From the IMG/VR virus record IMGVR_UViG_3300029448_000177, positions 1 to 34,492 of that record: DNA of 34,492 nucleotides. One strand, written 5' to 3'. The DNA is from a virus. The position numbers were made by a program, and so were the translations under genes. Below the pieces are notes generated by a model. The model worked only from the letters and a program-made list of their open reading frames with translations, was not told the origin of the DNA and ran no database searches. This document shows positions 226-34,492 of the stretch, piece by piece (within the stretch, counting starts at the first letter, position 1; the number at the start of each line of letters is the position of its first letter).

Positions 226-1563
226 ATGACAGGATATATTAACACAATTAGAGACTTAGAAGCGCAAACATACGGAATTAACAATCTACCAGCCGGTAAT
301 GCTTTATTGAAGCAAGCAGGTATGGTCGGAGGTATTCACACAGGACACGATGGTTCTCCATCTTTGTCCGGTAGTGGAGTTTCCGATGTTTCAGCATTAT
401 ACAACATCGTTTATGGACAAAAGGTTTGGTCTATGCTAAACCGAGAAGTCAATGCACTTTCGATGATTTCAAAAAGACCTTATTCTTCAAGTGGTTGGAG
501 AGTATTGAAAAGCCGACCTGCTGGCGGAAGTGGCAACTTATTCACTGTTGATGCAAGCGGAACAGAAAACCTTGCTGAATTAGGTTCGGATTCACCAAGA
601 GCAGATATGATTGGTGGTGTTCCTGAGAATGCGGCCCTTTCAACTGCTCAAGATGGATTAGGCCCAATTGCACCAACTTATGCTCAATTAAACATGAGTC
701 CAAAAGTTGTTGCACATCAATTCGATTTCAGCGAATTGGCTATGGAGATGGCTCAAATTGATGATGGTATTGGCGATATTAGAGCGCAAATGCGTGAAGA
801 TATGGGCAAGCACCACGCTGAAGTCCAAAACAAGATGCTAGTTATGCCATTACAACATTATGGTGAATCTTCCGCTATGCCTAACATTGGTAACAACTAT
901 TCATCATTGTTGAAGGTTATTACATCAAGAGCAGAATTACTCCTAATTGATGGTGGAGTTCTTGCTACTGATACTACTTCCGCTTCAAACGCATTAGGAA
1001 AGATTTACGGTAGTGAGCGATTTAGTGCCGCTTCTTTCTTAGATGCAGAAGTTGATTTCGGAACTGATTATACCGCAGGTAATGTTCGTTCTTTGACTTT
1101 AACTCTTCTAAACAACATGATTCGCAACTTGCGACTTGCTGGTGGTTCACCAAAGGTTATTCTAACTGGATATGACACCATTCAAGCCCTTGCTGACCTA
1201 TTACAAAGCCAAGAACGCTTTATGGATAGAAAAGAGATTGTTCCGACCGTTAATGGTGTAAGAGGAACAAAGGGTCAAGAAGTTGGATTTAGAGTAGCAA
1301 CATACTACGATATTCCTTTGATTCCTGTTAAGGATATGACCGCTACTGGTGCGGCTTCATCCAAACTAAGTGATATGCTTTTCCTTGATACAGACCATTT
1401 ATGGCTATCTGTTATGAAACCAACTCAATACTTTGAAGATGGTATCGCAAACGGAAATCCATTTGGTGTTGGAACACTGGGCAATAGAGCACTTTACCGA
1501 ACAATTGGTGAAGTTGGTTGTTCATTCTTCAAAGGACAAGGAAAAATAACAAACATACAATGA
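226..1563 (+). CDS. Major capsid protein, HK97-fold type
   Basis: This 445-residue protein most likely forms the icosahedral shell. It follows a scaffold-like tail and precedes small capsid proteins, and its length suits an HK97-fold subunit. Its N-terminal 60 residues are Gly/Ser-rich and poorly structured, then comes a helix-rich and mixed alpha/beta body (FDFSELAMEMAQIDDGIG around 170-190, ILTGYDTIQALADLL around 310) and a C-terminal part with GVGTLGNRALYRTIGEVGC, all of it compatible with the fold. Start choice: ATG lies 5 bases after GAGGTGAT (213-220). The gene uses more C-ending codons (AAC, TTC) than most neighbours, as expected for a highly expressed protein. The fold assignment rests on position, length and general pattern, not on an alignment. 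Confidence 0.8.
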   Translation: MTGYINTIRDLEAQTYGINNLPAGNALLKQAGMVGGIHTGHDGSPSLSGSGVSDVSALYNIVYGQKVWSMLNREVNALSMISKRPYSSSGWRVLKSRPAGGSGNLFTVDASGTENLAELGSDSPRADMIGGVPENAALSTAQDGLGPIAPTYAQLNMSPKVVAHQFDFSELAMEMAQIDDGIGDIRAQMREDMGKHHAEVQNKMLVMPLQHYGESSAMPNIGNNYSSLLKVITSRAELLLIDGGVLATDTTSASNALGKIYGSERFSAASFLDAEVDFGTDYTAGNVRSLTLTLLNNMIRNLRLAGGSPKVILTGYDTIQALADLLQSQERFMDRKEIVPTVNGVRGTKGQEVGFRVATYYDIPLIPVKDMTATGAASSKLSDMLFLDTDHLWLSVMKPTQYFEDGIANGNPFGVGTLGNRALYRTIGEVGCSFFKGQGKITNIQ

Positions 1564-2580: not shown

Positions 2581-2613
2581 GGAGGGGGCGACTTCCTCCA
2601 AATAGCGAAGTGA
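2581..2613 (+). promoter_or_regulatory. Alternative RNA hairpins upstream of the 2619 start
   Basis: GGAGG (2581-2585) can pair with CCTCC (2595-2599). Alternatively ACTTC (2591-2595) can pair with GAAGT (2607-2611), which is part of the GAAGTGA ribosome binding site of the next gene. The two pairings share position 2595, so they are partly exclusive. This could be a translational switch, or simply chance in a 58-base leader that is longer than other junctions in this operon. Confidence 0.3.
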
Positions 2614-2618
2614 GATTT

Positions 2619-2894
2619 ATGGTAGCAGGTTGTAGAAGTAGCGGTGTTTTAACCGCAAGCACATTAGTAGTAACAGGTCAAGTAAAATTGGTTTCAATCC
2701 ATGCTTGTTCTGTTGGCGCACCAACGGTAATTAAAATATTTGATAATATTGCCGCAAGTGGAAAAGAAATAGCGAGATTAACTATGGCTCCTGATACATT
2801 AACCGAATTTGACATGCACGGTGTATTGTGCATGAATGGTCTTTATGTTCAAGAAGTCTCCGGTGCTATGGAAGTTTCTGTTGAATACTCTTGA
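2619..2894 (+). CDS. Small virion protein, unknown (beta-rich)
   Basis: About 91 residues from ATG 2619. An in-frame GTG at 2610 would add three residues, but GAAGTGA (2607-2613) sits 5 bases before the ATG, matching the spacing seen at other starts here, so ATG is preferred. The sequence alternates hydrophobic and polar residues (VKLVSIHACSVGAPTVIKIF, then LTEFDMHGVLCMNGLYVQE and a final MEVSVEY strand), which suggests a small beta sandwich. It has three cysteines and no recognised family. It is preceded by a 58-base leader with possible hairpins, unlike the tight junctions around it. Confidence 0.6.
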   Translation: MVAGCRSSGVLTASTLVVTGQVKLVSIHACSVGAPTVIKIFDNIAASGKEIARLTMAPDTLTEFDMHGVLCMNGLYVQEVSGAMEVSVEYS

Positions 2895-2903
2895 GGTGAT
2901 TTA

Positions 2904-3320
2904 ATGGCGGCATTAAATAATGATACTCGATTAGTTATGACAATTTTATTTGTCGGAACAGTCAGTGGCGCAAATGTTTATTTTTACTCGGCTTATGGCC
3001 TTAGTTTTCCTTATGGCCCACTAGCCCATTCAGTTCTATTTGGATTGATTACAGTTGGTGGAATTATGGTTATGAAAGCCTTGTTTGACTTGTCTCTTAA
3101 TGATAGAATTGAAATTAGATTGCTTGATAGACAAATTGAATCTCACTTTCAGCGTGTAGCAAGAGAACAACAAATTAAACAAAAACTTCGTGAAAGTATG
3201 AAACAATACGGAGTAAATAGAAGAGAAGCATGGAATAATACCTTCCCTTCCGAAACTCCAACCGCTTCATTTGAAGAGAGCCAAATACCAAACGAGTTTT
3301 TGGCTACTATTCAACAATGA
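2904..3320 (+). CDS. Two-helix membrane protein with charged tail
   Basis: 138 residues. Two hydrophobic segments, at about residues 10-30 (LVMTILFVGTVSGANVYFY) and 39-62 (LAHSVLFGLITVGGIMVM), form a probable membrane hairpin. They are followed by a charged helix (about 65-105, DRIEIRLLDRQIESHFQRVA) and a polar tail. It opens the membrane/GTPase group, followed by another membrane protein and a membrane-anchored GTPase. The family is not recognised. It could be a virion-associated membrane protein, a penetration protein or part of a membrane complex with the GTPase. The start ATG follows GAGGTGATT overlapping the upstream stop codon. Confidence 0.65.
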   Translation: MAALNNDTRLVMTILFVGTVSGANVYFYSAYGLSFPYGPLAHSVLFGLITVGGIMVMKALFDLSLNDRIEIRLLDRQIESHFQRVAREQQIKQKLRESMKQYGVNRREAWNNTFPSETPTASFEESQIPNEFLATIQQ

Positions 3321-3330
3321 GGTGATTTAA

Positions 3331-3552
3331 TTGGTTCTTGGAGATATAATGGGATTCTCCGACTCGGATTACGCATACAATCAATCAAGAGCGCATTCTG
3401 CTGATATTTTCTTTATGCGAATGAGAGCATGGTTTTGGGGCAGTTTTGCCACATTATCAGCATTACTTATAGGAAACATAATGGGTGTTTTTGATGTCAA
3501 TATTATGGGTTCTTTGATTTCTTTTGTTAAGTCTATGTTTGGAGGTCATTAA
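3331..3552 (+). CDS. Small membrane protein
   Basis: 73 residues, starting with TTG right after GAGGTGAT (3319-3326). An in-frame ATG at 3349 after GGAG is a possible alternative that would shorten it by six residues. A hydrophobic stretch covers about residues 30-70 (FWGSFATLSALLIGNIMG, then VNIMGSLISFV), enough for one or two membrane passes. The stop codon abuts the GTPase start: GGAGG lies in the last codons (3540-3544), so this gene supplies the GTPase ribosome binding site and the two are probably co-translated. No family is recognised. Confidence 0.6.
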   Translation: MVLGDIMGFSDSDYAYNQSRAHSADIFFMRMRAWFWGSFATLSALLIGNIMGVFDVNIMGSLISFVKSMFGGH

Positions 3553-4221
3553 ATGTCAGTAATGGCAGGATTTGCCATCTTGATTACAGAAGCAGTAGTA
3601 TCATTTTACAAAAGAATACATGCTATTAATTTTGGAGTTTATGGGGCAACAATGGTTGGAAAAACAACTTTAAGTCATCAGTTAAGAACAAGAGGCGAAG
3701 TGCAACAAATTAACAAAAGAACAGTTGGACTTGAAAGAGCAAGTAGAAAAGTAATTAAATTTGATGGAGACTCTCATACATTAAAAAGCGCAGATATTGG
3801 CGGAGAAGCGATGTATTGGAAAGAATGGGTAAAAGATATGAAAACTCGTAAAGTAAGATACATTATTTTTATGATAGACCATAGGCATTTAGATTCACCA
3901 TCAAACTTAGACCATCAATTAGCATGGAAATTTTTAGTAGATACGATTACAGCAAACATTTGGCCTAATGGTAAAAGAAAAAAAGAAGTAGATTATCCTA
4001 TGGCAGTAAGTATTTGGGCAAATAAATATGATATATGGGGAGAAAAATACCCACTAAGAGAAGGACAATCAATTGATAAGCATGATATTTACGAACCATT
4101 TAAGTATGGAATGAGACAATTAAATGATAAAGGAATACCGACATTTAAATATATCGTATCAGCAAAGTCCGACCCCGAAATGGTTTACAAAGGAATAACT
4201 ACACTAATAAAGGACTACTGA
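3553..4221 (+). CDS. Membrane-anchored Arf/SR-beta-like small GTPase
   Basis: 222 residues with all five small-GTPase motifs. G1 is GATMVGKT (31-38), the G2 threonine is T57 in RTVGLE, G3 is DIGGE (81-85), G4 is NKYD (157-160) and G5 is SAK (203-205). The double glycine in G3 and the TVGLE switch I resemble the Arf/Sar/SR-beta group more than Ras. Residues 1-20 form a hydrophobic helix, a plausible membrane anchor as in SR-beta. Two membrane proteins precede it with no gap. Small GTPases of this type are not standard parts of tailed-virus head operons, so its role is unknown; candidates are membrane remodelling, interference with host protein targeting, or a conflict-system GTPase (for example double-GTPase families). 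Fold and GTP binding are well supported by motifs; function is inference. Confidence 0.85.
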   Translation: MSVMAGFAILITEAVVSFYKRIHAINFGVYGATMVGKTTLSHQLRTRGEVQQINKRTVGLERASRKVIKFDGDSHTLKSADIGGEAMYWKEWVKDMKTRKVRYIIFMIDHRHLDSPSNLDHQLAWKFLVDTITANIWPNGKRKKEVDYPMAVSIWANKYDIWGEKYPLREGQSIDKHDIYEPFKYGMRQLNDKGIPTFKYIVSAKSDPEMVYKGITTLIKDY

Positions 4222-4225
4222 TATT

Positions 4226-4432
4226 ATGTGGCAAAATATACTAAAGCACGATGCAAGAGAAATAAATAAAAAAAATATATTAGAGTATATTAAAAAAGAT
4301 ACTAAAAAAGCAAAGGTTGTAGAAATGCTATATAATAAATGGAAGAAAGATAAGTTTAACACCAACTCAAAAAATTATGATTCACTTAGATTATTTATAA
4401 GAGGATTAGATGATTTAGAATGGGAATTGTAA
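4226..4432 (+). CDS. Small basic protein, unknown
   Basis: 68 residues, very Lys- and Asn-rich, with a mostly helical pattern (NILEYIKKDTKKAKVVEMLY, then SLRLFIRGLDDLEWEL at the end). Base composition is more AT-rich than the flanking genes. The ATG lies 4 bases after the GTPase stop codon, and the best ribosome binding site is AAGGA about 12 bases upstream, weaker than at most junctions here. No family is recognised. Its place between the GTPase and a zinc-finger protein suggests it belongs to the same accessory group. Confidence 0.5.
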   Translation: MWQNILKHDAREINKKNILEYIKKDTKKAKVVEMLYNKWKKDKFNTNSKNYDSLRLFIRGLDDLEWEL

Positions 4433-4451
4433 GAAAAAAAGAGGAATAACT

Positions 4452-5081
4452 ATGTATCAACAACCGAATTTAATAAGTAGCCCACAAGCAAAAAATTTAT
4501 TTTTACCAAAACTACAACAGTTTAGAGCCGCAGGTTCTATTGAAGAATATACATTTGATGCTCTTAAACCTAAGAAACAATTAAAAGAAATTAAAAAGGT
4601 TCTATTACCAGAAAAGAAAAAATTCATTTTTAAATATGGTTATAAATTTAATTTAAAAGACAGATGTGTTGTTTGTGGAATGCACCATATTTGGGAATCG
4701 GGAGATTATTTAAGGCCACCTATTCCTTTAGATAATGTTACTAAAGGAAGACCAATGAGAGGAACTTATTGCCCAAAACATGCAGGTGTTCATAAACAAA
4801 TGGAGATGCTACAACAGCAGATTTTAGCAGATGAACACGGCTTAGATTTTAAAGCATTTATTCCTCGACCTAAAGTTCCTCAAATGTTAAAGAGTGGGCC
4901 AATAACTACTTTATCTAAACAAGACATTCTTTCCTTGACATCAACCGGATGGGTTATAAGTCCACCCGTAGTCAAGGATAATGAGACAGAGATGGCCGAA
5001 GTAATAAGGCTAATTGCAGAAATAGAAGTTAATACAGTAAGACTTAATGCAATTGTAACAAACTCTAAAAAGGTGGAATAA
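4452..5081 (+). CDS. Zinc-finger protein, unknown
   Basis: 209 residues. A likely zinc site is formed by CVVC (C72, C75), with histidines at 78-79 and YCPKH (C107, H110) plus H114, resembling a treble-clef or HNH-like knuckle without the HNH catalytic pattern. The N-terminal 60 residues are Lys-rich. The C-terminal 50 residues form an acidic helix (EMAEVIRLIAEIEVNTVRL). The start is ATG after GAGGAATAACT (GAGG at 4441-4444). It could bind DNA, RNA or another virion protein. No family is recognised; the metal site is read directly from the residues and is moderately secure. Confidence 0.6.
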   Translation: MYQQPNLISSPQAKNLFLPKLQQFRAAGSIEEYTFDALKPKKQLKEIKKVLLPEKKKFIFKYGYKFNLKDRCVVCGMHHIWESGDYLRPPIPLDNVTKGRPMRGTYCPKHAGVHKQMEMLQQQILADEHGLDFKAFIPRPKVPQMLKSGPITTLSKQDILSLTSTGWVISPPVVKDNETEMAEVIRLIAEIEVNTVRLNAIVTNSKKVE

Positions 5082-5083
5082 TT

Positions 5084-5752
5084 ATGGTATGGGGAACAAG
5101 CAATAAAACAGTAATGAGTGCAGTAACAGCGCAAGGCGACCAACAATTCAAAACAGTTAATAACTTACTTTCTTTACAGGATAATCATGTAGAAGAGTTT
5201 TTTCAATATCATGGTGAACAATTTTTAACTACTTTTGAGAAGTTAATGGAAGATGTTACTGAAAGAGTAGTAAGTCAAATGTTAGGTAAATTATCTTTTA
5301 CAGTCAATGGTTCAAAAATGACAATTGACGCTGATGCCATGAGAGAGTATGAAAGAATCACTCAAGAGAACATTGATTTAGATATTCAAAGGATTCTTCA
5401 ATCAGCAATTAACACAGAAGTAGTAAATCAACGCAAACTTGCGAAGCAACAATATCTTGAATCTCAAGGTTTCAATGGCGGTCAAATGGGCGGTCAAATG
5501 GGGGCTACTGCACCATCAGCAGGTATGGCAATTGCCGGATTAACCGGAAACCAACAACAATTTATGCAAGGTCAAGCCGCTATGAATAACGGTTCGGGCT
5601 ATCCTATTCCTCCAAGTGGAAATGACGGATATGGTCGGCCTTATTGGATTGACCCACAAACGGGGCAAATGAGTTATGAAGCACCTTCAAGTGGATTACA
5701 TTTAGGTTCAGCAATTCAAAAAGGTGCGGCTTGGGCTAAATGGTTAATGTGA
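5084..5752 (+). CDS. Virion-associated protein with Gly/Gln-rich region, unknown
   Basis: 222 residues. The first 130 residues are helical and acidic-to-neutral (DDNHVEEFFQ-like helices, ITQENIDLDIQRILQSAINT). Residues about 130-180 are Gly/Gln/Met/Ala-rich with a perfect GGQM repeat, and the end has YGRPYWIDPQTGQMSYEAP, a WW-like aromatic stretch. It starts 3 bases after the zinc-finger gene, with AAAAGGTGG upstream. No family is recognised. A structural or scaffold-type role in the head is possible from its position. Confidence 0.5.
   Translation: MVWGTSNKTVMSAVTAQGDQQFKTVNNLLSLQDNHVEEFFQYHGEQFLTTFEKLMEDVTERVVSQMLGKLSFTVNGSKMTIDADAMREYERITQENIDLDIQRILQSAINTEVVNQRKLAKQQYLESQGFNGGQMGGQMGATAPSAGMAIAGLTGNQQQFMQGQAAMNNGSGYPIPPSGNDGYGRPYWIDPQTGQMSYEAPSSGLHLGSAIQKGAAWAKWLM
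5477..5500 (+). repeat. Two perfect 12-base tandem copies
   Basis: GGCGGTCAAATG occurs twice head-to-tail (5477-5488 and 5489-5500) inside the coding frame and encodes GGQMGGQM. It is a recent slippage or unequal-exchange duplication in the low-complexity part of the 222-residue protein. Confidence 0.8.
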
Positions 5753-5763
5753 GTTGATTAACC

Positions 5764-7698
5764 TTGAAGATTAAATACGCAAGAACAGGCCAAGAAATCT
5801 CTTTGGATATTAATACTATCCAAAAAGAAATGGTTTTGTTTTTGCTTAGAAATTATCTTACATCAAAAGACAAATCATATAGAAGCATTCCTAAAAAACT
5901 TTCTTTAGAAGAAATGGCGGAGGTTAATCCTCTTAATTGGGAAAGTAAAATAAAAACAGAGTATGTTACAACATACAATAAAGCGGTAGAACAATTAAAT
6001 ACTGCTAAAGTATCGGAAGTTTTAACAAAATATAAAATTGAATTAAGCCCTTCTGGAGAAAAAGCAATTGGATTATTAACTGCTCAGAATGGTAAAGACA
6101 TAACATTTGCAGATTTATCAAATCCTTCTTTAGTATCTAAGGTTGTTAAGAACCCTGACAGTGTTAAAGAAGCGAGAGAGAATAGAGAAGCAGGTCTTAC
6201 TGATGCTCAATTCGATAAGTATAAAACATTTGTTGGAAAAGAAGGCAGGAAAAGCACTAAGGTTAATGTTGTCACAAAAACATTAAATAAAAAGAAAGGG
6301 GAGAAAGTAATAATTGAATTGAGGTCAATTAAATTTAATGAAATAGATTTTAATGACCCAAAAAATCCAAAAGAAAATAGCAAAATTGCTGTTCTTGAAA
6401 AATTAGGATTTGCCCCGATTGCTTTAATGGACAGTAGGCAAACTAGAAAAGTTGGTAGAAGGAATATTAAAACTACCTCTAAAGACGACCGAGAATCATA
6501 TAGAGAAGCCGAAATTGCCGGAGGTAGTTTGCTTAGTTCTGGAACTAATCAAAGTAAATATTTTTATGAAGAGCAATTTTTAAATCAAAATTATGCTGGT
6601 GATTGGAAAGAGTTAAACATTCCGACTTTAGAAAAAACATTGACTAATGCGGAAGCAGAAGACTTAGTTCTTTCATTTAAAGGTGCTTATGAAAGAACTC
6701 TCGAAAGAATTAAAAACCAATTAGAAATTGGAAAAAGAGCAAAAAAAGGCCGTTATGAAACTAAGTTCACACCCAAAGAAATTAAGTTCAATAATAAGTT
6801 TTTTAGTCCTCTTTCAAAACACGCTTATAAAGATGAAGTTAAAGTTTCAAGAATAGTTAATGGTAAAAAACAAACTAAAACTCTCAAAAGAAAAAAAGGT
6901 GAAAAAGTTTTAGTAACAAAAAAAGGAGACTTTATTACTCCAGACTTTAATTATATCAATAATGTAGGAGAAGTGGATGGTAAAAAAATTACTCTTTTAA
7001 ATTCGTTTTCTAATGTAGATGATTTCAAACAAACATTAACTAGACTTGAAAATATGTTTAAAGAAATAGGTAAAACTAAAAGCAATACAACAAAATTACT
7101 TAACCTTTACAAAACTTATATTGGCGAACTTAAAAAACTTAAACAGTATGTCAATAAAGAAATTGAAGCAAAAAAAGAAGAACTATCAGGTTTTAAAGAA
7201 AGAATGGATAACTTCGTTGAAGAAAAATTAGAAGCATTAGAATCAAAAACAGGCGGAGGGGCTTCACCAAGAGTATTATCTAATAAAGGTGCAAAAGAAG
7301 CATATAAAATGCAATTACCTAGTTTTATTAAAACAACTTTTTCTTCTCTACTTAGAGACTTAAAAACTTTATATGAAATAGAATTAAAGGTAGAAAAAAC
7401 TACAACTAAATATGTAAAATATAAAACTGGAGAGAAGGACAAAAAGGGAAAAGACATATATGATAAACAGGATAAACCAACTAAAGTTACATATGATTTT
7501 AAATCTCCATCTTTAAGGAACGCTACTCATAAAATAGAAACAAAAGCAGCAAATATTGGATTAGATACTAAAGATATGTCAAGGGCTACATATGGTAAAA
7601 GTTATGACAGGACTGCTATTAAAAGCGCAAAGGCTTTTATTGATTCAACTAAAAGAGGTCTTACTACTCTACAAAACTCATTATTAGAAGGTGTTTAA
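5764..7698 (+). CDS. Large Lys-rich head protein, unknown
   Basis: 644 residues, strongly basic, with long helical charged segments. The clearest coiled coil is at about 420-480 (LKKLKQYVNKEIEAKKEE and following). A KKGEKV motif appears twice (near 178 and 377), each before a short strand. Start choice: TTG 5764 follows TGAGTTGATT (5750-5759), a one-base variant of the usual signal. No nuclease, protease or NTPase motif was found. The position between capsid and connector genes would suit a minor head, ejected or DNA-binding protein. The family is not recognised. Confidence 0.55.
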   Translation: MKIKYARTGQEISLDINTIQKEMVLFLLRNYLTSKDKSYRSIPKKLSLEEMAEVNPLNWESKIKTEYVTTYNKAVEQLNTAKVSEVLTKYKIELSPSGEKAIGLLTAQNGKDITFADLSNPSLVSKVVKNPDSVKEARENREAGLTDAQFDKYKTFVGKEGRKSTKVNVVTKTLNKKKGEKVIIELRSIKFNEIDFNDPKNPKENSKIAVLEKLGFAPIALMDSRQTRKVGRRNIKTTSKDDRESYREAEIAGGSLLSSGTNQSKYFYEEQFLNQNYAGDWKELNIPTLEKTLTNAEAEDLVLSFKGAYERTLERIKNQLEIGKRAKKGRYETKFTPKEIKFNNKFFSPLSKHAYKDEVKVSRIVNGKKQTKTLKRKKGEKVLVTKKGDFITPDFNYINNVGEVDGKKITLLNSFSNVDDFKQTLTRLENMFKEIGKTKSNTTKLLNLYKTYIGELKKLKQYVNKEIEAKKEELSGFKERMDNFVEEKLEALESKTGGGASPRVLSNKGAKEAYKMQLPSFIKTTFSSLLRDLKTLYEIELKVEKTTTKYVKYKTGEKDKKGKDIYDKQDKPTKVTYDFKSPSLRNATHKIETKAANIGLDTKDMSRATYGKSYDRTAIKSAKAFIDSTKRGLTTLQNSLLEGV

Positions 7699-7700
7699 AT

Positions 7701-8819
7701 ATGGCAATTGCATCCTCCCCAAGCGACTATACAGCAATAAATGTTGATTACTCAACAGGTAGTGGTTATTATACTGATAAAGGAGCAGTTGCAGATATGC
7801 TACAAATACCAGCATTTTCAAGTTCTACTTATCCAACTCAAGCACAAGTTGGTGCAATTATTAAAAACATAGAAGGAATGATTGATGATAAGGTAAAGCG
7901 TTCTTATAGGCCAATTATTTACAGAAATGAATTTCATAACTTTGAATTTATTCGACACCCTATGCAAGCATACTATGGTGGATATGTAGGCTTTGTTCAA
8001 TTAGATACTTTAAAACTAAAGAAAGTAATTTCACTACAAGTTTGGCAAGGAAACAGTTATCAAGAACTTGCTTCTGCTCAAGCGAGTTTAACTCTCGACC
8101 CAACAGGATATAAAAATTTAAGAAGCATTACATTACAATTACCTAATAGTGGTGATTCTTGGGTTTTATATCATCACGCTGAAGGTTCTTTAGCCGCACA
8201 TAATACTTTTCATAATGGCTTTGGTTCAAAAACAACTGCTCAAGAGATTTGTCATTTAATCAACGAAGAATACCCTTCAAAGACAGCACAGTTTACAGGC
8301 GCAACAAGAGATAAAATATTGGAGTCTTCGCCAAATAGCCTTAACATAGGAGATTTCTTTTATGCTTCTACTGACCCCGATAACGGCAACAAAGTGAACA
8401 TTTCTAGCCTTTTAGCAGGTGAAGATGGCTCAAATTGCACCATCACCATCACCGATAAAGCGGGTCAAACATCAAATACTTCGTCGGTTGCGTTCACCGA
8501 CATGCAAGATATGAAGAGACTTGGTTCATTCTGGGCAATAGGAGATGAAGGGCGTATTTTCTTTTTAAGAGACTATCCATACCATACTCAAAATTCAATC
8601 ATTTGCACCTATATTGCAGGTAGTAGTCGTGTTCCGTCTGCAATACATAAAGCCGCTACTATGTTAGTTGCGGCTGAATTACTTAGACATGACGACCAAA
8701 CAATTTTAATTGCTGAAACTGGTGGTAATATCTCAACGAAGGAAAAGTATGATATACTGAAAAAGGAAGCAGATGATATACTCAAGGGCAAGTCCGACTT
8801 GGTTTTCTTACTTGATTGA
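7701..8819 (+). CDS. Head-tail adaptor (connector) protein with inserted domain
   Basis: 372 residues. The N-terminal part (about 25-65: TDKGAVADMLQIP, then a long helix AIIKNIEGMIDDKVKRSYRP) and the C-terminal part (about 305-370: IHKAATMLVAAELLRHD, then EKYDILKKEADDILKG) match the helical pattern of gp6-type adaptors that sit under the portal. Adaptors are usually 100-200 residues; here about 100 residues of beta-rich sequence (roughly 165-275) are inserted. Part of that insert, near 8383-8512, uses C-ending codons unlike the flanks. The start is ATG with GAAGGTG (7687-7693) inside the previous gene. The adaptor call is a pattern judgement supported by position before the tail terminator. 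Confidence 0.6.
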   Translation: MAIASSPSDYTAINVDYSTGSGYYTDKGAVADMLQIPAFSSSTYPTQAQVGAIIKNIEGMIDDKVKRSYRPIIYRNEFHNFEFIRHPMQAYYGGYVGFVQLDTLKLKKVISLQVWQGNSYQELASAQASLTLDPTGYKNLRSITLQLPNSGDSWVLYHHAEGSLAAHNTFHNGFGSKTTAQEICHLINEEYPSKTAQFTGATRDKILESSPNSLNIGDFFYASTDPDNGNKVNISSLLAGEDGSNCTITITDKAGQTSNTSSVAFTDMQDMKRLGSFWAIGDEGRIFFLRDYPYHTQNSIICTYIAGSSRVPSAIHKAATMLVAAELLRHDDQTILIAETGGNISTKEKYDILKKEADDILKGKSDLVFLLD

Positions 8820-8829
8820 AGGTGATTTT

Positions 8830-9375
8830 ATGGAATGGTTTAATATAATACAAAAAAACATATTACCTGCGGGAGAATTAGAAAGACGAATGAAAGCGAG
8901 AAAAGAAAAAGAAATAGCAAATGTTCCTCCTGCTCCTACTTTACCTCCGGTTGAAGGAAAAAAAGAATTAACACCGGAACAAAGAGCAAGAAAAAAGAAA
9001 TTAGAGGCTCGTCAAGACTTAAATCAACAGAGGCAATTGCAACGAGAAGAGCGAGAAAATCAACAATCATCTAATGTCTCAACTAATAAAAGAACTCCTC
9101 TACCCGATAATATTAAATCAATTAAAGAAAATAAACCGAAACAAAAAATCCAATTACAAGGCGCAACACCAAAACAAAAGAAAAATCTTAGTGGTAGAGT
9201 TAAAGCCGCACTTCAAAGAAGGGGTGCTAAAAAAGCAGGATTTAGAAATGTTGAAGATTATGAATATTATAAACCTAAAAATGTAGAAAGAAGAAATCTT
9301 GAAGAAAGTATTAAAACGCAAAGAGAAAATCTTAAAAGGAAAAAACAACAAATGTCTTCTTCTGGTGGTCTTTGA
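8830..9375 (+). CDS. Highly charged helical protein, unknown
   Basis: 181 residues from ATG 8830, which lies 3 bases after GAAGGTGAT (8818-8826). A longer in-frame start at 8773 exists but would overlap the previous gene and lacks this signal. The protein is Lys/Arg/Gln/Glu-rich, with a likely coiled coil (QRARKKKLEARQDLNQQRQL) and a basic C-terminal helix (NLEESIKTQRENLKRKKQQ). No family is recognised. Its place between adaptor and tail terminator suggests a neck or minor head role. Confidence 0.55.
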   Translation: MEWFNIIQKNILPAGELERRMKARKEKEIANVPPAPTLPPVEGKKELTPEQRARKKKLEARQDLNQQRQLQREERENQQSSNVSTNKRTPLPDNIKSIKENKPKQKIQLQGATPKQKKNLSGRVKAALQRRGAKKAGFRNVEDYEYYKPKNVERRNLEESIKTQRENLKRKKQQMSSSGGL

Positions 9376-31423: not shown

Positions 31424-32308
31424 TTAAAACCAATCCTCTAATTTTGTTTGTAATTTTCCTGTTCTTATACTTGATAAATCCCAATTCATCGCTCGATAAA
31501 TCGGCTCGGCCTTTTTCAAGACCTGTTGTGCGTAGTGTTCCCAATCCGGCTCATAATTATCAAAGTCTTCATAGGTTGTGCCGGACATATATTCCACCAC
31601 CTTTTCTTCCTTAGTCAATGGGTTTATGAATGTATCGTTATGCTTAACTTTCATAAATAAATACGAATCATCAAACTCCATGTTATGTTTTTGTTTAGCG
31701 TAAAGAACACCGGCAATACCTGAACCTACGCTTGGTCTTTTATTTTGTAATGTAACAAATTGACTTGTATCTGTTCCACACTTCAAACACCATTTAATAT
31801 CTAAACATTCATGCAATCCATACTTAGAATTACATTCATTACACTTTACTGTAAATCTGTCACTCTTCAATCTACTTCTTTTGATTAGGGAAGATACGGG
31901 TATCTCTCCTTTCAATACAGAAGTATATAGGTTGAATAACCTAATGTTTATCTTTTCCAACGGCTCTTGATTCACCCATTGTTTAAGTGCGCTTGTTTGA
32001 ATCTCTTTAGCAAAAGGAGTTTCACTCACTCTTTTGGCTGTAAATCCAGTCATTGTGAACTTAGGTTCTTTTAACCATTCTCCATCATCCCAAGTAATCA
32101 TACCAGCATTTCTATTCTTTGTTGTTCCAACACCTAATGCGGAGTAATACTTTTCAAACTCTAATACAACAGGGTGCTGTTCAAGACCCATTACATTAGG
32201 AAAATGTTCTCTTACTGATGCTTCAATCTCTTTAATAGATTCTTGCGCTTCTTCAACAGAATCTATTTGAACATAGATTGAATCAGTATGTCCATATACT
32301 ACTTTCAT
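31424..32308 (-). CDS. Family B DNA polymerase, C-terminal part (motif C, thumb, PIP box)
   Basis: 294 residues from ATG 32308 (a TTG at 32323 is possible). It begins right at motif C, YGHTDS (5-10), where the usual first Asp of DTD is His; D9 is kept. It continues with VVLEFEKYY (48-55) and FTAKRVSETPFAKEIQ (89-104), the palm-to-thumb motif. A four-cysteine finger (C156, C159, C174, C177) is inserted in the thumb. The last eight residues, QTKLEDWF, fit the PIP box consensus for PCNA binding. It needs the upstream polymerase part (33915-34492) to be complete. The start overlaps the previous gene as ATGA. Confidence 0.9.
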   Translation of the reverse strand: MKVVYGHTDSIYVQIDSVEEAQESIKEIEASVREHFPNVMGLEQHPVVLEFEKYYSALGVGTTKNRNAGMITWDDGEWLKEPKFTMTGFTAKRVSETPFAKEIQTSALKQWVNQEPLEKINIRLFNLYTSVLKGEIPVSSLIKRSRLKSDRFTVKCNECNSKYGLHECLDIKWCLKCGTDTSQFVTLQNKRPSVGSGIAGVLYAKQKHNMEFDDSYLFMKVKHNDTFINPLTKEEKVVEYMSGTTYEDFDNYEPDWEHYAQQVLKKAEPIYRAMNWDLSSIRTGKLQTKLEDWF

Positions 32309-32493
32309 TTTACTTTCTCCCAAACATTTTCTTTTTTTGGTTTAGGCTTTGGGTTTTCCCCAACATCTAATTCCAGAATCATTTTTACTCCCTTGAAAAA
32401 ATCTCCCAAGTCTCTAATTACAATTCTATAAATAAAACCTAATAACATAGTAAAGGGATTATAAATCTTAAAATTCCAATCCTTTTCCTCCAT
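32305..32493 (-). CDS. Small protein in polymerase insertion, unknown
   Basis: 62 residues from ATG 32493, which has GGGGTGA 5 bases upstream; an earlier in-frame GTG at 32502 fits less well. It carries an amphipathic or membrane-associated segment (FTMLLGFIYRIVIRDLGDFF) and a basic Pro/Lys-rich end (NPKPKPKKENVWEKVK). The stop codon overlaps the polymerase C-part start. No family is recognised. It could help the two polymerase parts associate, but that is a guess from position. Confidence 0.5.
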   Translation of the reverse strand: MEEKDWNFKIYNPFTMLLGFIYRIVIRDLGDFFKGVKMILELDVGENPKPKPKKENVWEKVK

Positions 32494-32498
32494 TAGTT

Positions 32499-32666
32499 TC
32501 ACCCCAAATAATAAGTGAACTTAGCCGCAGGTGCGTCATGTAGTTCTTGTAATTCTTGAATTGCCGCATATATTTGACGGAGTTTTAGATTCTCCCTATA
32601 TAAGTCAGACAATTCATCTTCAAGCATCTTAATTTTCTTATTTATTTTTTCTAATTCTGTATTCAT
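32499..32666 (-). CDS. Small coiled-coil protein
   Basis: 55 residues, ATG overlapping the previous stop codon (ATATGA), with GGTGGT upstream. Residues 1-45 are a heptad-like charged helix (LEKINKKIKMLEDELSDLYR, LRQIYAAIQELQELHD), a likely short coiled coil. No family is recognised. Confidence 0.55.
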   Translation of the reverse strand: MNTELEKINKKIKMLEDELSDLYRENLKLRQIYAAIQELQELHDAPAAKFTYYLG

Positions 32667-32794
32667 ATTACCACCGTAATTATTGTTATAATGGTTGCTA
32701 TGTTCACGATATTTACCATCATCAATATCTTATTACTTCTTGCTATCATAGCCAGCAATTCTTCTAATAACTCATTTGTTCTGTCCATCATCAT
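32663..32794 (-). CDS. Small membrane protein
   Basis: 43 residues beginning with three consecutive ATG codons (32794, 32791, 32788), any of which could start it. A charged N-terminal helix (RTNELLEELLAMIARSNK) is followed by one hydrophobic segment (VNIVNIATIITIITVVI). The only Shine-Dalgarno-like sequence, GAGG, is about 14 bases upstream. It resembles small holin-like or membrane regulator peptides, without proof. Confidence 0.45.
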   Translation of the reverse strand: MMMDRTNELLEELLAMIARSNKILMMVNIVNIATIITIITVVI

Positions 32795-32802
32795 AATAAA
32801 CA

Positions 32803-32982
32803 CTAGTCCTCATATTCTAACATTTTACCGTTATCATTAATACCTTGTTCAATATCAACAATAATAGCATGACGCTTCAAGTTATTCATCATTTGAAATA
32901 TTTCCTTTACTTCTTGTAAAGTAATATCCCAAGTCTCTTCTGTATCATACGATACTTTAACTGTTACATATTTAATTTTCAT
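32803..32982 (-). CDS. Small protein, unknown
   Basis: 59 residues, ATG 32982 with GGAGGAAAGAAA upstream, overlapping the end of the preceding gene by 11 bases. A strand (KIKYVTVKVSYDTEETWDI), a helix (LQEVKEIFQMMNNLKR) and a second strand (AIIVDIEQGIN) suggest a small alpha/beta fold. No family is recognised. Confidence 0.5.
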   Translation of the reverse strand: MKIKYVTVKVSYDTEETWDITLQEVKEIFQMMNNLKRHAIIVDIEQGINDNGKMLEYED

Positions 32983-33199
32983 TTTCTTTCCTCCAATATA
33001 AATTTACTTTTCCTTTTCTTTCCTTTCTACATATTTGAGAAAGATACATACCAACAGAATAAATATTCGTAATATAATGACTGTTGTTTGTTCTTGCATC
33101 TAATACAGCATAGAATATATCTTTTGAAGTAAAAGGCTCAGGGTAATCTTCAATTGCTTCTCTAATCCATTTTTTCATAAAAGTATTTATTTTTGACAT
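32972..33199 (-). CDS. Small winged-helix-like protein, copy 2
   Basis: 75 residues. It shares a pattern with the gene before it: KWIREAIEDYPEPFTSKDI here against KWIVEAIEELSSPFTVDEV there, then a central SN/NS with I-x-S, and a basic-aromatic end (VNLYWRKENE against VNTSTYRRK). The pattern of helix, helix, recognition helix and basic wing suggests a DNA-binding winged helix. The two genes are tandem paralogues. GGAGG lies 7 bases before the ATG. Confidence 0.55.
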   Translation of the reverse strand: MSKINTFMKKWIREAIEDYPEPFTSKDIFYAVLDARTNNSHYITNIYSVGMYLSQICRKERKGKVNLYWRKENEN

Positions 33200-33200
33200 A

Positions 33201-33392
33201 TCATTTCCTCCGGTATGTTGAAGTATTCACCCAATAAGCATGTCTTTTACAATACGATGCTATTTGAGTATTACTCCCAATCATTTTACTTAGGCCTTTC
33301 TTAGAGACTATTTTATCTCTTACTTCATCCACAGTAAAAGGCGAAGAAAGTTCTTCAATTGCTTCTACTATCCATTTTTCTATTAGTTTCAT
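33201..33392 (-). CDS. Small winged-helix-like protein, copy 1
   Basis: 63 residues, ATGA overlap with the zinc-finger gene, AAGGAGATG upstream. The helix MKLIEKWIVEAIEELSSPFT is followed by a helix VDEVRDKIVSKKG, a third helix SNTQIASYCKRHAYW and a basic end STYRRK. It is similar to the next gene downstream and probably arose by duplication. A DNA-binding regulator of the operon is plausible; no direct evidence. Confidence 0.55.
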   Translation of the reverse strand: MKLIEKWIVEAIEELSSPFTVDEVRDKIVSKKGLSKMIGSNTQIASYCKRHAYWVNTSTYRRK

Positions 33393-33676
33393 TTATTCAT
33401 CTCCTTTTTATAAAAATCTTCAATCTCCTTCCAAGCCTCATATAGTGGTTCAAAAGGCCCCATTTTGATTTCTTCAAGTTTCTTCTTTTTCAGTTTGTGA
33501 GCATTTAACACATTCTTCTTGAAGGCTTCCTGTGCTTTTGGTGTCATTCTCGTCAAATGGTAGCCCTCACATAGTTCGCAATAATAGTAACTAAGTTTAA
33601 CACCATCTTTCTTTTCTTTTAGCATATATTGATGAGCAACCGTAGCATTAGGATATATTATCTTTCCACATCTCAT
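33389..33676 (-). CDS. Small zinc-knuckle protein
   Basis: 95 residues. Cys at position 3 and YYYCELCEGYHLTRM (C33, C36, H41) could hold zinc; an N-terminal C plus CxxC-x4-H is common in small phage zinc proteins. The second half is a long charged helix (KKNVLNAHKLKKKKLEEIK). It is not an HNH endonuclease: the catalytic His-Asn-His set is missing. ATGA overlaps at both ends. The role is unknown. Confidence 0.6.
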   Translation of the reverse strand: MRCGKIIYPNATVAHQYMLKEKKDGVKLSYYYCELCEGYHLTRMTPKAQEAFKKNVLNAHKLKKKKLEEIKMGPFEPLYEAWKEIEDFYKKEMNK

Positions 33677-33918
33677 ACTTTCATCTCCTTTCTTTTTATA
33701 GACCAGTTATCATATGATAGGCCTTGTAATGCTACTCCTGTAATAATACCTATTAAAGAATCCGTATCTAATCTTACATACATCATAATAACTAATATTG
33801 CCGTTGCCCATATCCAATGATGAATATGATACTTAGCAGTTAATAAACTGGGAGAATGGGGAGTTAATGCTTTAGCCACTACATAGCCTGTTACTAATCC
33901 TAAACTGTATTCAATCAT
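33673..33918 (-). CDS. Small membrane protein
   Basis: 81 residues with hydrophobic segments at about 5-18 (SLGLVTGYVVAKAL), 35-47 (WIWATAILVIMMYV) and 55-66 (LIGIITGVALQGL), so two or three membrane passes, and a basic end. It is the first gene after the polymerase motif A/B part; its ATG overlaps that stop codon (ATGA). The family is not recognised. A membrane protein inserted inside a split polymerase gene is odd. Confidence 0.6.
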   Translation of the reverse strand: MIEYSLGLVTGYVVAKALTPHSPSLLTAKYHIHHWIWATAILVIMMYVRLDTDSLIGIITGVALQGLSYDNWSIKRKEMKV

Positions 33919-34492
33919 ACTTCCAACTCCTTAGCCTTAAACGCCGCTAGTCTAATTGCTTCTCTAGCACTTGCAGTAATGCTTGCGGCTAAATTAACAT
34001 CAGCCCAACCAAACCCTTGAAATGCAACAATGCCATAAAAAGATGCCATTAATCGCTTTACAGCCATTTGATTGTTATTCCACTTAACTACTTCCGAATC
34101 GTTTCCGGCCTCTCTTGCATCTCGCATAAGACGCTTATATTCATTTCGCAACTCTTTCAATTCAAGAACTGCTCTTGGCAATAAGCCCAATTTATCTGTT
34201 TTGTAATACAACATATGCTTTCTTGTTACAGGGCTAAAGTCTCTTGGAGTTGCGATATTAACTGCAAACTCTGTCGGTTCTTCGCTTTTAGTTTCAAAAG
34301 AAATATTGCGAGCAATCATCATTGACGGATAAAGACCGGCAAAATCAAAGGCGGCTACATTCAAATGTAATCCGTTTGTTCCTTCACTAAGCGGGTCATA
34401 AATCATAGCACCGTCATAAGTTTCTCTTTTATCCACTTTACTTCCAGTCTTACAAATCCAATCAGCATTACGCATAAAGTAAATAGAACCCA
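33915..34492 (-). CDS. Family B DNA polymerase, motif A and B part (partial)
   Basis: The frame is open to the right edge, so the N-terminus is outside the window; about 191 residues are seen. Motif A is FDFAGLYPSMM with the catalytic Asp. Motif B is KRLMASFYG, with Ala in place of the usual Asn before Ser. The chain then runs through ASAREAIRLAAFKAKELEV and stops just before where motif C should follow. Motif C is found 1.6 kb downstream at 32308, preceded by eight small genes. The two parts are therefore split at a clean fold boundary and would have to assemble. The exonuclease domain cannot be judged. Confidence 0.9.
   Translation of the reverse strand, partial: GSIYFMRNADWICKTGSKVDKRETYDGAMIYDPLSEGTNGLHLNVAAFDFAGLYPSMMIARNISFETKSEEPTEFAVNIATPRDFSPVTRKHMLYYKTDKLGLLPRAVLELKELRNEYKRLMRDAREAGNDSEVVKWNNNQMAVKRLMASFYGIVAFQGFGWADVNLAASITASAREAIRLAAFKAKELEV

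Follow-up and report, generated by a model that had tools for sequence, protein, structure and literature searches.

The window analysed here is a virus record of 34,492 bases and represents part of the genome of an archaeal tailed virus that resembles magroviruses. Genes for the capsid and tail, among them those of an SU10-like major capsid protein and an adaptor-like protein, are grouped on its + strand, and replication genes occupy the other strand, with pieces of a family B DNA polymerase, a PD-(D/E)XK nuclease and an ERCC4 nuclease. The gene for the major capsid protein (MCP; 226..1563, + strand; PF17236, E 1.3e-6; phrog_24667, E 7.8e-23) provided the upstream context and the tree marker, and its nearest named relative is the capsid protein of the haloarchaeal Druskaviridae (HVTV-1; E about 1e-18). 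Relatives of the window are contigs of 90-100 kb, also with capsid/tail and replication modules on opposite strands. Poseidoniales archaea are the hosts of the tailed viruses known as magroviruses (PMC10768690, PMC12999244), and the window virus matched several Magrovirales traits when compared with the descriptions in these two papers, namely a Druskaviridae-related HK97-fold MCP, an opposite-strand replication set of archaeal type and genomes of 90-110 kb. Because the MCP kinship, the module layout and the sizes of the relatives fit the published description, we regard the virus as magrovirus-like. Its host, taken from the magrovirus literature, is presumably a Poseidoniales archaeon. The family B DNA polymerase is split in two ORFs (window 31424-34475, - strand) with about 1.6 kb and small ORFs between them, and the two parts cover Pfam DNA_pol_B profile positions 34-193 and 220-370; PolB-NTD/CTD is listed by ICTV for Aoguangviridae.

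Within the structural operon, five genes on the + strand form a cassette in the order TM1-TM2-GTPase-Zn protein-g5084 (2904-4221 plus 4452-5752). To its left lies the capsid-associated gene g2610 (2610..2894, +), which is also present in relatives that lack the cassette, and to its right a large fast-evolving protein (5764..7698, +), followed by the adaptor-like protein (7701..8819, +), which serves as the right-hand anchor with or without the cassette. The slot of 5764..7698 holds a large protein in cassette-less relatives too, with weak homology between the two clades. The first-pass annotation had placed ORFs at 2904-3320, 3331-3552, 3553-4221, 4226-4432 and 4452-5081, all of which proved real, and had treated them as one unit. 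Four of them stayed together, while the small gene at 4226-4432, recognisable in 1 of 80 relatives, had to be taken out and 5084-5752 added.

TM1 (2904..3320, +; 138 aa) has hydrophobic segments at about residues 10-28 and 43-61 and a charged C-terminal tail, with 33 invariant columns in its family alignment. TM2 (3331..3552, +; 73 aa, TTG start) has one hydrophobic segment preceded by an invariant RAHSAD. Both lie directly upstream of the GTPase gene (median gaps of 5-10 nt), as fixed partners, so the earlier description of two membrane proteins before the GTPase held. Each of the genes for TM1, TM2 and the GTPase has a Shine-Dalgarno-like stretch (GAGGT/GAGGTG) ahead of it. Downstream, the Zn protein (4452..5081, +; 209 aa), also recognised in the first reading, carries a predicted zinc-binding CxxC...CxxH; C72-x2-C75 and C107-x2-H110 are invariant in the family alignment, and searches of Pfam and NCBIfam gave no credible family. 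The last gene, g5084 (5084..5752, +), encodes a helical N-terminal half, a Gly/Gln-rich linker and a very conserved C-terminus with a WW-like PYWIDxxxGQ stretch followed by KGxAWAKWL. Its Pfam matches are weak and limited to WW and Phasin. Residues of about 172-201 of g5084 hold a conserved GYPIPPSGxDxYGRPYWIDxxxGQMSYExP that resembles the second half of a WW domain. Such domains are otherwise found mainly in eukaryotes, and Pfam WW matched 4/18 members here (best E 0.048).

We found that the five genes behave as an indivisible cassette of one magrovirus clade. MCP-found relatives were pooled with GTPase-found loci to give 94 complete MCP-to-adaptor intervals with distinct capsid proteins; 67 contained all five cassette genes, 27 contained none, and none was mixed. 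The same two gene-content classes were seen among relatives found through the MCP instead of the GTPase. When g5084 was used as an independent bait, the order TM1-TM2-GTPase-Zn-g5084 was fixed in 70/70 loci with enough upstream DNA, which bears out the synteny of 2904-5081 except that 4226-4432 is variable and 5084-5752 is included; with divergent GTPases as bait, every partner was present in 62/62 loci. Intergenic spacing in the cassette is tight (median 0-13 nt). On the MCP tree the cassette-bearing viruses form a single group (42 rows, support 96/84) with the others outside it, so that one gain or one loss of the cassette suffices. No copy of the cassette was found elsewhere in the large contigs of the cassette-less class (88, 92 and 64 kb). 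Distances among the GTPases follow those of g5084, TM1 and TM2 (rho 0.75, 0.70 and 0.67) more closely than those of the MCP (0.50).

The GTPase gene (3553..4221, +; 222 aa) encodes a hydrophobic N-terminal helix (residues 2-22) and complete G1-G5 motifs, as had been claimed from the first reading: GATMVGKT (31-38), T57, D81-I-G-G-E85, NKYD (157-160) and SAK (203-205). A single pattern set retrieved at least 402 relatives from IMG/VR. Across 170 unique sequences (169 relatives and the window), G31, G36, K37, T38, T57, D81, G83, G84, N157, K158, D160, S203, A204 and K205 are invariant, as are S2, G6, F7 and E13 of the N-terminal helix. Residue 85 in switch II is E in 134 sequences and Q in 36. 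W92, at +11 from D81, is likewise invariant, and this DxGG[E/Q]-x6-W spacing is one that we take to recall Arf/Sar/G-alpha. Conservation of the gene is far beyond chance, the nucleotide-binding site is intact and the N-terminal helix is hydrophobic and possibly amphipathic.

An AlphaFold (AF2) model built from 41 sequences (pLDDT 76, pTM 0.76), which replaced a poor model from 12 close sequences (pLDDT 53), showed the Ras-like order of strands and helices after an extra N-terminal helix formed by residues 2-22. With this model as the query, Foldseek matched PDB chains of Rab, Ras, Rho, G-alpha and Arl8 proteins at E-values from 4e-9 to 5e-8, the best being Rab8 at E 4e-9, with TM-scores normalised to the target of mostly 0.6-0.75. 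TIGR00231 (small_GTP) was matched by 41/41 members scanned (best E 1.8e-7), and PF01926 by 34 of them, Roc by 23, Arf and SRPRB by 7 each and Ras by 4. Single-family scores are modest, the window protein falling below the curated cut-off of TIGR00231 and below the gathering cut-off in every Pfam match, as might be expected if it were a different P-loop NTPase that merely resembles a small GTPase. However, we consider that scarcely credible: NKxD and SAK are invariant, the order of strands and helices is correct, and the Foldseek PDB matches listed are exclusively Ras-superfamily and G-alpha. These results confirm that 3553-4221 is a genuine small GTPase of the Ras superfamily (TRAFAC class), and the structure prediction gave no sign of another P-loop class.

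The assignment to a subfamily is less firm. Sequence searches of the PDB gave marginal matches, mostly to KRas and never better than E 0.06, which are too weak to decide between subfamilies. The Arf-like label given earlier is a reasonable description of the protein's features, resting on the N-terminal helix and the DxGG[E/Q]-x6-W pattern and not on a family-level score, and it does not demonstrate membership, since no subfamily is proven; against PF00025 (Arf) the window protein scored 15.7 bits for a cut-off of 22.3, with a best E in the family of 2.1e-4 and 7/41 members at E <= 0.01. As in Arf, Sar and Arl proteins, the helix stands directly before beta1 and switch II reads DxGG[E/Q] with Trp at +11, and Arl8b is among the PDB structure matches. 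Unlike in the Arf family, the catalytic position is more often Glu than Gln, and Rab and Ras score against the viral protein as well as Arf or better. The viral helix is presumably also longer and more hydrophobic than its Arf counterpart, and both an amphipathic and a transmembrane reading fit it. The SR-beta identity proposed in the first-pass annotation is not supported: SRPRB matched 7/41 members at E <= 0.01, the window protein reached 16.2 bits against a cut-off of 25, and the matches are no better than those to generic GTPase models.

Such a gene is unusual in the capsid module of a tailed virus, as the first reading had suspected: PHROGs searches gave no match to it, and none was found among 50,697 phage records. 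A scan of reference genome contigs yielded one locus (L085, NZMJ01000024.1). It lies on a magrovirus contig that had been assigned to the MAG of a bacterium, Maricaulis, probably through contamination. In a library of viral structures, the best 50 matches listed were all from giant viruses of eukaryotes, whose Ras/Rab GTPases (Klosneuvirus, Pithovirus and others) are likewise virus-encoded small GTPases. Klosneuvirus, Pithovirus and the others infect eukaryotes, unlike the carriers of the cassette, and we know of no fixed head-operon GTPase cassette with membrane partners in giant viruses. The head operon of Druskaviridae (HVTV-1) has a related MCP and a similar gene order but lacks the GTPase, the zinc protein and g5084. 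A small membrane protein (HVTV-1 gene 124, L082:14199-14531) follows the g2610-like gene there, in the slot where the magrovirus cassette starts, and is by eye unrelated in sequence to the cassette start.

The closest precedent tested in Archaea is ArvA, a Haloferax GTPase of Arf-like type that begins with an amphipathic helix, is required for vesicle formation and is encoded in an operon with a zinc-ribbon gene (PMC10927574). Judged by this published description of ArvA, the viral cassette shares with ArvABC a small GTPase with an N-terminal helix, membrane-acting genes in Archaea and a zinc protein one or two genes downstream of the GTPase; PF01926 is the commonest Pfam match of the viral GTPases, as it is for ArvA. 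This layout would suit a true viral homologue of the ArvABC vesiculation system captured from a host. We regard that origin as very unlikely, however. In seven virus records the OapB model (PF09846, ArvB) found nothing at an E limit of 10, while the Haloferax volcanii control was positive, and the OapC model (PF09845, ArvC) had no credible match in the cassette, the Zn protein within two genes of the viral GTPase included; one sub-threshold OapC match, in G012, fell outside the cassette. Because the OapB and OapC domains are absent, the cassette is not an ArvABC system, and it further differs in its two membrane proteins, in g5084 and in its location in a viral head operon.

We propose that the cassette encodes a viral GTP switch which is expressed late, acts at the cytoplasmic membrane of the host and organises or remodels this membrane for virion assembly or egress, a reading to which we give a probability of roughly 40%. 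Late expression would follow from the position in the operon. GTP loading may expose or insert the N-terminal helix and so bring the GTPase to TM1 and TM2 in the membrane, where the Zn protein and g5084 could act as a regulator (GAP- or effector-like) and as an adaptor to virions or their precursors. The membrane would then be organised or deformed through the GTP cycle for assembly or egress, in a manner like that of Arf in coat recruitment or of ArvA in archaeal vesiculation. At the sequence level, the residue-specific invariance of the N-terminal helix and the two membrane proteins immediately upstream point to such a membrane switch, although a long hydrophobic helix could also be a plain transmembrane anchor. 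The cassette cannot be needed for assembly or egress in general, since sister magroviruses without it must assemble and leave as well.

An alternative is that the proteins are directed at the host, hijacking protein targeting in the manner of SR-beta, controlling trafficking or excluding superinfection at the membrane. A GTPase with membrane partners is compatible with this, as is the SRPRB match, which is below cut-off. However, SRPRB scores no better than generic GTPase models, and the GTPase is strongly conserved. Among 67 genomes it was the most conserved of ten genes compared, with a mean pairwise identity of 0.80 against 0.71 for the MCP and a dN/dS of about 0.09, at near-saturated dS. 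In 15 genomes not chosen via the GTPase, both the GTPase and the MCP stood at 0.71 and the other cassette genes at 0.53-0.65, so the excess in the larger set is partly an effect of query selection. Purifying selection on the cassette is firm, which suits a gene set with a core role in the clade and not an arms-race gene. Genes for superinfection exclusion are usually variable and usually expressed early. The suggestion that the cassette blocks superinfection is a poor fit, because the GTPase is as conserved as the MCP and sits in the structural operon, and PADLOC returned nothing credible, so that a defence system is not supported either. Overall, we judge a host-directed role improbable.

The small basic gene (4226..4432, +; 68 aa) bears on a second alternative. 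As a cassette partner it was rejected as a variable insert that is not conserved. Nearly all inserts of more than 150 nt lie beside the GTPase (before it in 13/169 loci and after it in 23/169), and 26 of these 36 contain a gene starting with MWxxILK, as the window gene does (MWQNILK). An N-terminal tag of the form M-(x0-2)-W-x-[D/N]-I-[L/I]-K begins 138 unique proteins from about 69 otherwise unrelated families, with sites in the window at 4226-4432 and 8830-9375 and, for example, at L161:13937-16124, L212:1161-3563 and L213:10843-12623. The tagged proteins in related loci are all on the structural strand (0/7,933 ORFs on the opposite strand), and the W..[IL][ILM][KQ] core of the tag has a density at residues 1-3 that exceeds the density inside proteins about 240-fold. 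Three long contigs had 26 of 27 tagged genes on the structural strand, at 6-11 per genome. Viruses that have the GTPase cassette and viruses that lack it both show the tag, which was not seen in the HVTV-1 region. We hypothesize that the tag may direct variable cargo to the capsid or mark it for packaging, much as with the internal proteins of T4.

In this alternative, the GTPase and its partners would work within the prohead or at the portal vertex, as an assembly checkpoint or in the loading of internal proteins, and might themselves be packaged and injected. The cassette does sit between the capsid-associated g2610 and the adaptor, most genes inserted beside the GTPase bear the tag and resemble packaged cargo, and g5084 very weakly matches a virion structural family (E 0.011). 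However, the tag is missing from all five conserved cassette proteins, it is borne by sister viruses that lack the cassette, and two membrane proteins together with a hydrophobic N-terminal helix would be odd for a factor inside the capsid. A role in the capsid is, on this evidence, rather unlikely.

As far as can be told, a capsid-gene-associated GTPase cassette has not been reported before in tailed viruses; a full-text literature search found no paper with both 'magrovirus' and 'GTPase', although the gene may have been annotated in passing before. Small GTPases with a membrane role occur in eukaryotes, in some archaea and in giant viruses, and the way in which archaeal tailed viruses exit from their hosts is poorly characterised. 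If the membrane switch proposed above is correct, the cassette would tie GTP-driven shaping of membranes to the assembly or exit of abundant marine archaeal tailed viruses. A bolder reading, which we consider rather doubtful, is that one magrovirus clade carries its own membrane-remodelling GTPase machine, a counterpart of Arf and ArvA vesiculation, for virion release or the reshaping of membranes in a planktonic archaeal host. A natural comparison is available in the related clade without the cassette, and, given the ArvA parallel, the membrane-remodelling idea lends itself to testing in Haloferax.

One contig of 184,733 bases (IMGVR_UViG_3300021958_000021) carries two different copies of the cassette (L065 and L075) about 92 kb apart. 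It represents either two joined genomes, as a concatemer or a chimeric assembly, or an unusually large virus.
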